The notes beneath the pieces were generated by a model. It did no database searches. It was not told the DNA's origin and saw only the letters and a program-made list of their open reading frames with translations. DNA of 64,000 bases from NCBI GenBank assembly GCA_034440575.1, contig JAOTOL010001605.1:482001-546000 (forward strand), in the 5' to 3' direction. Made by a program: the position numbers and the translations under genes. Below, one piece after another: positions 31,356 through 58,300 of this stretch (position 1 is the first letter of the stretch; each line of letters starts with the position of its first letter). The stretch is from Imbricaverruca yamaguchii. Taxonomy: Eukaryota > Arthropoda > Thecostraca > Neoverrucidae.

Positions 31356-34300
31356 GTAAGTACAACATCTGTAGGCTTCTTTTGATACGTCAAGGCACTT
31401 TTCTTGTTGCCACATGATGCTAAGTGTGCTATCTATCTTTCATAGCATATTTTATTGCCACCAAACCGTGGCTATGTTACCATGGTTGGGTACATCCACC
31501 AAAGGACGTGACCCCGAGTTTCCATAGAATGAGGATAGCTGACATAAAATATATTTTAACGCCCGTCACATAAAGTTGCCATTTTGCTTTTTCTACCAGG
31601 CTCTTGGTAGAGATTGATCAGTTGAGTCCATTCGTCAAGGCTGGATTCCCGTAGTCTACTCAGTTGTTTCTTTCTGCACGTGCCGCCGACTCGACCGACC
31701 TCACTCTGCGTGTTTGCCAAGTCGAGGACGTTAGTTGCTATGGTAACATCCCAGCTTACGCGCACAGCAACAGGCTCGTTCGAGCTCCTCCACTGCTTCT
31801 AACTGCTACTAATATACTCAAATAAGAGGGAGTTTTTGCGTATTCGGGATCAACATATCTGTGAAAACCGGCAATCTCTCTTTGCGTTTTTCATTTGACA
31901 ATTGTAGATGAGGAACACGAATGTCGCCATGCAGCTCGGCCCTGGCATAGAAATAGCTCCGGGAGGATCACGAGGGAGAGGAGCTCCCTCGTAGAGGGGA
32001 GCTCACCTTGCTCCCCTCCTCTCCTCGGGGAGCAAGGTGCTACGGGCAAGCATGAAATCCCCTGTCGATTTGGGGAGCGCGAGCCTACACAAAGTTGTGC
32101 AGCTTTAGCAATGAATCTATGAGCGTTGACTGCAAATAGTAATAAGAAACACCCCTTTAAACGCCTTCCAAGAGTTTTGAGAAGACTCTAGCTATGGCTA
32201 CAGCTCCTGCCGACGTTCTTGATGTGACATCTCCCATGTGCCATGCATTCTTGTTCATCGGACAAGTTGAACACCCTTATCAAAAATGTGCTCGAATCCG
32301 CCTCAGGACTCAGAAGATGGCCAAGGCTCTGGGCTCTGGGAGGAAAACGATGATTATTTACTCCGGAAAGGTCTACTAAATATATACTTACCTCGCGAGT
32401 TAGCATTCATCACCGTTTCGTCTGCCAATATACTCGTTTCTGGTACAGATTTGTCAAGTCTGTTTCCATGGGGCGATTTACCCGTTGCATAGCTAATTAA
32501 TCACTTCACCGGAGCTATGTTTGCCAGGCTGGTTCACCTGATGTGGCCGGGACCATTTTCAGAGAGCCGAGTCACATCATGCCCGGTCCGGCCCGGGGCT
32601 GCATTTCGCTCTACAGTCTGTCCTGGCTCACTGGAATGATGTGGAAGGCGTGTCGAGACAAACTGAAGCCAGCCGACATTTGGACCCTGAGGGTAAGGCG
32701 CATCGAAACAAACTGAAGCCAGCCAACATTTGGACCCTGAGGGTAAGGCGTGCCGAGACAAACTGAAGCCAGCCGACATTTGGACCCTGAGGGTAAGGCG
32801 TGTCGAGACAAACTGAAGCCAGCCGACATATGGACCCTGAGGGTAAGGCGTGTCGAGACAAACTGAAGCCATCTAACATCTGGACCTTGAGGGTAAGGCG
32901 TGTCGAGACAAACTGAAGTCTGCCGACATTTGGACCCTGAGGGTAAGGCGTGTCGAGACAAACTGAAGCCAGCCGACATGTGGACCCTGAAGGTAAGGCG
33001 CATCGAAACAAACTGAAGCCAGCCAACATCTGGACCTTGAGGGTAAGGCGTGTCGAAACAAACTGAAGCCAGCCAACATCTGGACCTTGAGGGTAAGGCG
33101 TGTCGAGACAAACTGAAGCCAGACGACATCTGGACCCCGAGGGTAAGGCGTGTCGAGACAAACTGAAACCAGACGACATCTGGACCCTGAGGGTAAGGCG
33201 TGTCGAGACAAACTGAAGCCAGGCAACATCTGGACCCTGAGGGTGAGGCGTGTCGAGACAAACTAAAGCCAGCTAATATCTCGACCCTGAGGGTAAGGTC
33301 TGTCGAAACACACGAAACCCAGCTGACATCTCGACCCTGAGGGTAAGGTGTGCCGATATATTGAAGCCAGTCGACATCTGGGCCATGAGGGCAAGGTGTG
33401 CAGAGACATACTGAAGTCATCTAACATCTGGACCCTGGGGGTAAGGCGTGTCGAGACAAACTGAAGCCAGACGACATCTGGACCCTGAGGGCAAGGCGTG
33501 TCGAGACAAACTGAAACCAGCCGACATTTGGGCCCTAAGTGTGAGGCGTTATCGCTGGAAATCTTACTTTTAAACGGTGTAGCTCAAGCGGTTTCAAAAT
33601 CAAATTAACCCACCGTATCGCCAAAGGTCCAATGTTGAAGGTTGAAAACAAGCCAGCCGACATCGGCCGACAAGCGTTTGCAGGCCAGTGGTCAGGACAC
33701 GGAGTATATGGTCACGGCTGTGCCGTAATTAGCCCCTCGTCTTCAAATGTGGTCGCCTGGTCAGAATTCGATGTCCACCAACCGTCTCCATATTGAAATC
33801 AGTGTGGACGTAGGTCGGGCACGCAGTTGGCAGCTTGTCTGTTTCGCCCTGAACACAATCTTGCCCGCTTCTTCGCAGCCGGAGGACTGCTGCCACACCA
33901 ACTACGTGCGTCTGGAGCGCCACTGGAGACACGAGCTGAAACTGAAGGGAGAGCAAGGTGCCTCGCTGACCCTGACATTGCTCCGCACCTTCCGCACGCG
34001 TACAATTATTTCGATCATGCTGATGCTGGTGGCCAATACCTTGGCGCTGCTGGGACCGGTGAGGTGAACTCTGTGGTGGACTGTTGTGGCTATTTGGGTG
34101 ACCTCTGTATTTATCTGCTGGGACTGGTGAGGTGACCTCTGTATTGGACTGTTGGAGCCGGTGGGGTAACCTCTGTATTGGACTGTTCGAGCCGGTGGGG
34201 TGACCTCTGTATTGGATTGCTGCGGCCGGTGAGGTGACCCCTGTATTGGACTGTTGTGGCTGTTGAGGTGACCTCTGTATTTGTTTGCTGGGACTGGTGA

Positions 34301-55300: not shown

Positions 55301-58300
55301 TTTGTGGTGCGTTTACTGGTGGTGGTGGGGTAGAGGGTAGCATGCCTCTGGCGGTGATTTGTAGTGTATCTACTGGTGATGGTGGAGTCGGGTGCAGTAT
55401 GCCCTCTAACCGGTGTGGGTAGTGTGTCTACTGGTGGTGGTGGGGTAGAATGTAACGTACCCTTTGACTGTGGTGGGTGGTGTGTCTACTGGTGGTGGTG
55501 ACGCATGGCAACGTTCCCCCTAAGGGCTCCTTGCCGCTTTCCAATCTCGCGCCCCCATCCGCACAGGAGGAGCGGCTGCGCAACACGACCCTGTACAACA
55601 TGACGTACACGCCGGAGGCACTGGCCGGGGTCATCAACGACAGGCCCGACAGGGACGCGTACACGCTCGGCTACGTGGGTCTGGTGGCTGCGCTGCTGCT
55701 GATCGGGATGATCAAAGGTCAGCCGTGGTCGAACGTGCCGAACGTGAGGTGAGGGAGCCGCTCGGTTTGACGACAGTCCGTCTTTATCATTCAGGATGGC
55801 CTGTTGGTTTGGAGGAACGCACTTTTGTTGATTTTGCTGTCACAGCTGGATTGTCGAGGCTAGCGACACCACAGCCTGCTACAAGACGTGGATGCTGGAA
55901 TGTTTGGTGGCACTGTTGGATTGTCGAGGCTAGTGAGATGTAGCCTGCTACAAGACGTGGATGCTGGAATGTTTGGTGGCACTGTTGGATTGTCGAGGCT
56001 AGCGAGATGTAGCCTGCTACAAGACGTGGATGCTGGAATGTTTGGTGGCACTGTTGGATTGTCGAGGCTAGTGAGATGTAGCCTGCTACAAGACGTGGAT
56101 GCTGGAATGTTTGGTGGCACTGTTGGATTGTCGAGGCTAGTGAGATGTAGCCTGTTACAAGACGTGGATGTTGGAATGTTTGGTGGCACTGTTGGATTGT
56201 CGAGGCTAGCGAGATGTAGCCTGCTACAAGACGTGGATGTTGGAATGTTTGGTGACACTGTTGGATTGCAGTAATTGCTCCGTCTGGAAATAATTGATCC
56301 CTCTGGAAGTCCAATGGGTGGTATGTTTCAAGGCGCTGGTTCACTGCCAGCTTTGACTTTGATAATGTTTGAGGTGAGGAAGAGTCTCGGTGCTGCGGCG
56401 AGGAGCCTGCTGAAAGCAGCTTCTCATAATGCATTGATTAACCTCCATCCTCTCGACTGATCGCAAGAATGGGTGTGCAGAAATTGCACATGGCACTGAT
56501 TTTGACGCAAGTTATGATATGTCGACTTCGTCCGCCTACAAGTGGCTTGACAAAGACAGCGAAATATACTTGTCCAACCCTCGCACATGAAATTCAATAA
56601 ATTTTATGTTAAAATTACTCGCCCGTCCGAGTGAAGAATTGTCAAGTCGTGTGAACTTCATAGTTCGAAGAAGTCCTCAGGAGTAAATTGCCATACCTAC
56701 CATGAAACATGAAAATATTCGTTGCATTTATTGTTGTTAATCACAAATTGTCATAGCCAATACGAATGGGTTTTGCCTGTCGAATTAATCACGATGGCAT
56801 TATAAATAATTGTATTGCATTCAAATTCTTTTCGTAACATACTAGCATGCTTTGCTTTTTTTCGTTCCATTTCCCGTAACCATTAATAAATAGGCAGGAG
56901 TGTTCTTGGGATGGATATGAATCAATATGACATGAGTTACTTCAAATGTGCACAAATATGCTAGCGATCTGCACCCAGCGTGCCGGACCCACCGGCGCTT
57001 CACAGAGCGTCCTGACCTGACGGTATGTTTACCTCCAACAGCCTGGAACAGCGCGAGATTCGCAGTGAGGGGGGCTCGGCGCCTGCACAACCGCATGATC
57101 TCCAGTCTAATGCGCTGCAAGATGAGCTTCTTCGACAGCACTCCGGTGGGCCGAATTCTCAACCGTCTGTCGCGCGACATAGACTGCGGTAGGTCGGCAT
57201 GATGCATCACTCCCTGTCCACAACATGGGCTATAGTGGGTCGGCACAGCACATCGCTCCATGTCCACGACATTGATTGCGCCAGGTCAGCACAATGCCTC
57301 ACCCCGTGTCCACGACATGGACCGCGTTAGGTCGGCATCGCACACCACTTCATGTCCACAACGCGGACTGCGGTAGGTCGCCGCCACACATCACCCCATG
57401 TCCACGACGTGGACTATAGTAGGTCGGCGCAGAACATCACTCCATGTCCACAGCATGGAGGTGGTAAACTATTTTACGTGAAATGCCCAATTCCCAGCCA
57501 TGGGCATCGCCACATACTTTGGATTGTGGATGGAGGGACGGATATGCTTCTGGAGTCCATTTATATCTTTGCCAAGCATAGATGCACTGCTAAATTTCAT
57601 GCAGTTTGGTCGGTACGCGTCGCCACATCCCCCACCGTACCGACGCTCGTGTTTGGAATCCTGCATCAGCTTAACCTAGTGTGCGGGAAAGGAAATGCTT
57701 AGCAATATCAGTGTACGCATAGGCGAAGGCACACTCCTTGTCCCAGGTATGGAATGTATTGGATAATGGTATAGTTGGACAAGACACATTGAAGCATGAT
57801 GCCCCATCATGGTGGCAAGTTTAATGCTGTGCAAGCTAGTTGATGGTGTGAATGTGCCACAAGTATTCATGTGCATATTTTAACGTCCCCACAACCTCTC
57901 GGAAAAATTACTAAACGCCCGTGAACCTGCACCCCAACCTCCGCGCCGCAAACGCTTGGGAACAGCTCTGAATCGACTCTTTCACCACCCGTTAGAAGTA
58001 ACTTCATGATGACATCATTCGCAACAAAAGCTGTGGTTAAGGAAGCTTCACGGAGTCGATACGTCAACCACTTCCGACACAAAATCTGGTTCCTTTTTTT
58101 CGAGGGCAGTGGAACTTTTCCTGGATCACGCCTCATTACCTGCTTTAACACAGTTTTTAGGTGACGTCCCTGAATCAGTACCTGTTTCCAAAGTTCTGAT
58201 GGCGTCCAAGGATGGAACTTTCCATGTTATTGGTCGGAAAATTTGCCCTCCGTTCCCAAAAATGTTGCCGAGGCTTAGCATGGATCCCATCTTCCGAATA

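Follow-up and report, generated by a model that had tools for sequence, protein, structure and literature searches.

Tandem arrays of exon-edge sequence at 13 of 36 predicted splice junctions in an ABCC5-like gene of the barnacle Imbricaverruca yamaguchii

The ABCC5/MRP5-like gene on contig JAOTOL010001605.1 of the barnacle Imbricaverruca yamaguchii (assembly GCA_034440575.1) carries tandem arrays at many of its exon edges, and these arrays are made of the bases of the very edge at which they lie. We analysed positions 482,001 to 546,000 of this contig, a stretch of 64,000 nucleotides that we call the window and whose numbering is used throughout; the gene was traced at 32563..61822 on the plus strand, with 18 consecutive predicted exons labelled 2-19. 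Thirteen of the 36 edges tested are in or beside an array of their own edge bases, and each of these arrays likely goes back to a separate duplication that straddled the edge and was presumably tolerated through splicing. The initial annotation of this DNA had reported such arrays at twelve or more splice junctions: All twelve are confirmed with Tandem Repeats Finder (TRF) and alignments, and a weak thirteenth case, the acceptor of exon 8, can be added.

The host gene was recognized from an in-phase exon chain with matches to barnacle proteins and to ABCC5. Exons 2-19 comprise 908 codons and are free of stops and in phase once joined, and the gene extends past these traced exons. Every exon edge is a prediction from DNA; the array counts cover exons 2-18, and the edges tested are 18 donors and 18 acceptors. 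Among the 120 listed of 995 protein matches to the model, barnacle proteins take the first three places: Two belong to Amphibalanus amphitrite and cover 100% of the model with 65% and 62% identity, and the third, of Pollicipes pollicipes, covers 68% with 73% identity. The Amphibalanus MRP5-like protein with 65% identity is co-linear over 100% of the 906-amino-acid model, and residues 6-902 of the model align with solved ABCC5 chains; a protein search with a piece of 132 amino acids alone yielded only two fragments. The predicted product is thus an MRP5/ABCC5-type transporter. In the alignment with the Amphibalanus protein P0003, all seeded edges but one keep the exact length (12 of 13), and at the remaining one, the acceptor of exon 11, it is about one residue off in a poorly conserved stretch. 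This agreement suggests that, of the array copies, the one adjoining the exon body provides the predicted splice site. No repeated peptides that could stem from the arrays were noticed at the seeded edges in the five proteins of relatives that were aligned.

All 13 arrays are on the plus strand. At the donor side, the arrays contain the edge in every case: the 50-base-pair (bp) array of exon 2 (32645..33549; edge 32692/32693) with 48 exon bases, the 34-bp array of exon 3 (34047..34996; edge 34058/34059) with 12, the 24-bp array of exon 5 (39481..40058; edge 39485/39486) with 5, the 65/26-bp array of exon 11 (46048..46209; edge 46076/46077) with 29, the 31-bp array of exon 13 (50612..50837; edge 50629/50630) with 18, the 65-bp array of exon 16 (53518..53692; edge 53558/53559) with 41, and the 46-bp array of exon 18 (57175..57459; edge 57188/57189) with 14 exon bases. 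For the exon 16 donor, the alignment of the consensus to the edge halted at the edge, and the spanning is seen from the 41 exon bases in the TRF array and from an adjacent extra copy. At the acceptor side, the edge lies inside the 77-bp array of exon 11 (45361..45821; edge 45795/45796; 26 exon bases), the 59-bp array of exon 12 (46533..47343; edge 47326/47327; 17 exon bases) and the 53/98-bp array of exon 16 (53255..53469; edge 53441/53442; 28 exon bases). The TRF arrays of two further acceptors end short of the exon, by 26 positions at exon 5 (54-57 bp, two TRF rows, 37541..39304) and by 29 positions at exon 14 (50 bp, 51191..51420), and in both the alignment of the intronic consensus continues over the edge: the exon 5 unit holds the edge 39329/39330 with up to 30 exon bases, the exon 14 unit the edge 51448/51449 with 18. 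The weakest case is the 20-bp array at the acceptor of exon 8 (42287..42339), which reaches the edge 42337/42338 and includes two exon bases. Some unit lengths given in the initial annotation need correction: the unit of the exon 18 donor has 46 rather than about 57 bp and that of the exon 16 acceptor about 53 (TRF gives 53 or 98) rather than about 65, and the exon 13 donor unit measures 31. It had also been stated that the lengths include both multiples and non-multiples of three: among the 13 periods, only 54 and 24 are divisible by three.

TRF reported 69 rows in the window. Exons 2-18 hold 25 merged rows, or 24 arrays once the two rows of the exon 5 acceptor are joined, and 13 of these 24 minisatellite-like arrays have a unit that contains an exon edge. 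Both kinds of boundary are affected (7 donors and 6 acceptors, each out of 18), and 11 of the 36 edges are directly overlapped by a TRF array. A gapped test that does not rely on TRF found an adjacent extra copy at the identical 13 of 36 edges; an ungapped test for 30-base copies had missed diverged cases such as the exon 5 acceptor, and the gapped tests took its place. The alignment of units to junctions that the initial annotation had proposed as a check was carried out with the intron-side copies (the consensus in 22 of the 25 rows, the raw sequence in three), which were aligned to all 36 edges. Of the 25 rows, 16 placed their nearest edge at the top of all 36 with a score exceeding the 95% level of the shuffles, and nine did not place it at the top. 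The shuffle level was taken from 12 of the 36 edges per shuffle and is hence slightly low. The 16 passing rows correspond to the 13 edge arrays, as the acceptors of exons 4 and 13 match on the intron side only and two rows form the exon 5 acceptor family. For all 13 edge arrays, including the 50-bp array at the exon 2 donor, the own edge ranks first of 36 and exceeds the shuffled level, and the unit spans the exon-intron boundary, weakly so at exon 8. As to the exon 13 acceptor, a 25-bp unit with a C-rich stretch and CAG is present in about 79 copies at 48459-50435; this array ends 17 positions before the acceptor, which its unit matches on the intron side only.

The number of edge-spanning arrays is far above random expectation. 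We used two null models: In the first, one unit per array was dropped at random on the gene, and in the second, the whole array was slid inside its own intron. The 13 of 24 arrays observed compare with 1.55 expected for single-unit seeds (P 1.8e-10) and 2.16 for slid arrays (P 6.6e-9). If TRF overlap alone is counted, 11 edge arrays are left (P 5.2e-8 and 1.1e-6, respectively), and the strictest count, without exon 8, gives 10 (P 6.8e-7 and 1.1e-5). We also stratified 33 of the 36 edges by their content of guanine and cytosine (GC): At a GC content of at least 55%, 12 of 22 edges are seeded as compared to 4 of 51 intron tiles (P 3.3e-5). Within the window, the edge arrays lack close relatives. 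A BLAST search with the window units (period of at least 16, E at most 1e-4) against the window found no edge unit outside its own array family, the two TRF rows of the exon 5 acceptor matching each other, and a single spreading satellite behind the edge arrays can thus be rejected. When the gene's 22 consensus units were compared pairwise, a few pairs scored above 30 shuffles (25 versus 16 for the top pair). The earlier proposal that each array has its own seed is therefore supported by the match to the own edge, by the lack of close unit relatives in the window and by the excess over both null models. Unit recurrences of other kinds do occur in the window: The arrays 27051-27435 and 30884-31016, about 3.4 kilobases apart, have a common unit with 87-93% identity and represent, unlike the edge arrays, a dispersed minisatellite; the arrays at 15748 and 16687 also share a unit in the BLAST search. 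The unit of the 69-bp array in intron 17 (55833-56268) has a 92% copy in intron 16 (54664-54753), which by eye sits in a longer similar stretch, a local segmental duplication.

Each array was likely founded separately, when a segment of about 20-77 bases that straddles an exon edge was duplicated in tandem. The extra copies would presumably be tolerated as splicing removes them along with the intron, and the array may then grow by replication slippage or unequal crossing-over, with the copy that touches the exon body probably serving as the splice site. The initial annotation had put the starting point of the duplications at the splice sites themselves. This is too strong: The exonic part makes up between 0.10 and 0.96 of the unit, on average 0.43, and its distribution is not distinguishable from uniform (P 0.18); this indicates that the edge lies inside the duplicated segment rather than at its end. 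The idea that introns have grown by such duplications holds in part, as the 13 edge arrays account for 6,815 of the 10,407 array bases, beside 22,014 intron bases between exons 2 and 18.

Several observations weigh against this scenario. The data come from a single gene in a single haplotype, which was picked because the arrays had been noticed there, and the P values apply to this gene only. A nearby copy is present at 13 of 36 edges as compared to 37.0% of 1,976 intron-interior windows, and a cruder ungapped test gave 10 of 36 edges versus 37.1% of 2,601 positions; by base coverage, then, edges are no more embedded in repeats than the intron interior, which again speaks against duplications that start at splice sites. 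This lack of an excess by base coverage arises because each long array fills many interior windows: The excess in array counts concerns origins and base coverage concerns the amount of repeats, and both hold. The excess at edges is confined to those with at least 55% GC; at 45-55% GC, 1 of 10 edges and 4 of 79 tiles are seeded (P 0.46; the numbers are small), and below 45% GC it is 0 of 1 edge and 3 of 93 tiles. GC content as the whole cause is therefore rejected in the uppermost class, not in the 45-55% class with its few cases. Some units exceed the shuffled level at a foreign edge, most clearly the array 55269-55500 at the donor of exon 4 (32 versus 21). Neither identity (P 0.34) nor copy number (P 0.14) separates the edge arrays significantly from the interior ones; there is no measurable surplus in divergence or length at edges, and the arrays thus offer no history by which sub-mechanisms could be told apart. 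Finally, divergence in the array of the exon 5 acceptor is greatest in the copy next to the exon (0.63 identity to the consensus versus 0.99 far off), suggesting that growth was not simply outward from the exon. As regards the array 55269-55500, its 58-bp unit has its top score of 32 at the distant exon 4 donor, above all other edges, perhaps due to a shared TGGTGGTGG stretch.

Why edges should exceed the intron interior can be explained in different ways. We favour survivorship: Duplications may be frequent in GC-rich exonic sequence, and those within exons would be purged by selection whereas those that include an intron edge would persist, hidden by splicing. Copies are rare at exon-interior positions (3.6% of 723). 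Survivorship as the cause of the excess is nevertheless a guess, with about even chances against alternatives such as a mutational hot spot. In the latter case, splice edges would be truly prone to tandem duplication, for example by transcription-coupled breaks; this is a sub-mechanism compatible with separate edge-straddling duplications, and we regard it as possible if rather doubtful. The seed excess in GC-rich sequence and the similar seeding of donors and acceptors fit a hot spot, but the edge has no preference for one end of the unit, there is no excess at 45-55% GC, and in most of the nine edge arrays that were profiled, no clear gradient is seen with distance from the exon, while that at the exon 5 acceptor is reversed. 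Alternatively, the introns might simply be filled with minisatellites that hit edges in proportion, so that splice junctions are nothing special. The equal base coverage and the large share of array bases in these introns are in line with this, but coverage counts all copies of a long array, the independent arrays exceed both random expectations several times, and where a unit includes conserved bases of the exon, its seed must have spanned the edge. Proportional hits are therefore unlikely.

Two further explanations start from the arrays themselves. We counted as a decoy each array copy with an intact splice dinucleotide and core context (our own criterion) and found 122 of them at 12 of the 13 edges, with none at exon 8; the many decoy sites that the initial annotation had suspected are indeed present. 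Selection might have kept these AG- or GT-bearing copies as a splicing buffer or regulator. When copies are set against the real site, 8 of the 13 edges have dinucleotide columns that are more conserved than the rest and 5 have less conserved ones, and the dinucleotide is fully conserved in two of nine arrays (exon 5 donor and exon 12 acceptor). This comparison is the cruder one because it picks copies by their likeness to the real site, and we prefer the measure within arrays, against their own consensus, by which the dinucleotides exceed the mean of the non-CpG columns in five of the nine arrays and fall short of it in four. The lean towards conservation is thus not upheld: Compared with the other positions of the unit, the splice dinucleotides have no clear advantage in conservation, as would be the case for neutral decoys. 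Moreover, 112 of the 122 decoys would shift the frame (93) or add a stop (19), leaving 10 that do neither, and 23 of the 36 edges do without such an array. We consequently reject selection for decoys, which we consider very improbable. It is scarcely credible, in turn, that assembly errors have created or inflated the arrays. An amphioxus array of this kind was reportedly aberrantly assembled in a draft genome (PMC3087553). In the edge arrays studied here, however, internal identity is 69-98%, there are private variants, and the period differs from edge to edge; nor is there reason to expect that assembly errors would single out exon edges.

The initial annotation was silent on amphioxus, where the phenomenon had already been named. 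Amphioxus mirages are minisatellite-like duplications of exon-intron boundaries in Adh3, the globin genes BflGb6 and BflGb9, troponin C and PGBD5, with units of 10-72 bp in Adh3, 150-160 bp in BflGb6 and 157 bp in BflGb9; they reportedly leave regular splicing undisturbed, and length and somatic instability have been described (PMC3087553, PMC3902484). By every feature tested, the arrays of the ABCC5-like gene are mirages in this sense: In both cases, tandem units extend across exon-intron edges on the 5' as well as the 3' side, their lengths vary, and AG/GT signals are present in many of them. They differ in that the host is a barnacle rather than a lancelet, that 13 edges of one gene are affected as compared to the one edge per globin gene and the 5' and 3' site in PGBD5 found in the same sources, and that the arrays were counted here against random placement. 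There is also a relation to the model of Rogers, in which introns are gained when exon segments that contain AGGT are duplicated in tandem in the genome (PMC3443670). As in that model, a segment with splice-like sequence is tandemly duplicated and hidden by splicing; unlike in that model, it is the edge of an existing intron that is duplicated, so that the intron grows, and no new intron is shown here. Our literature search, which missed most subscription journals, found no report of mirages in barnacles. In word searches of the available text of three barnacle genome papers, "tandem", "minisatellite" and "simple repeat" are not mentioned in one (PMC8270832) and "tandem" and "satellite" not in another (PMC8917513), and "tandem" occurs once, in a methods line, in the third (PMC8416341). 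What is new is the arthropod host group, the density in one gene and the counts against random placement; the kind of array itself is already known. Amphioxus is of very high nucleotide diversity. For the barnacle Balanus improvisus, extreme nucleotide diversity has been reported in coding regions (PMC8270832).

Outside the gene, the minus strand of the window holds the remains of retroelements. A reverse transcriptase with RNase H is encoded at 1150-2595 (within 318-2595), next to a weak, sub-threshold match to an integrase at 318-932, and an open reading frame for an endonuclease and reverse transcriptase is located at 10442-12766. On the same strand, an open frame of 479 codons at 27988-29424 has no match in Pfam.

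It is tempting to speculate that exon edges generally and repeatedly give rise to minisatellites and to intron growth, in barnacles as in amphioxus, and that mirages are a convergent, genome-wide phenomenon rather than an oddity of lancelets; we put this forward tentatively, as somewhat short of an even chance. A simple genome-wide test is at hand, i. e. the comparison of array seeds across exon edges with random seeds. If the pattern were to hold genome-wide, exon-edge duplications could supply a large share of the intron DNA, mirages would have arisen outside the lancelets, and spliceosomes would have to find the correct site among dozens of nearly identical decoys.

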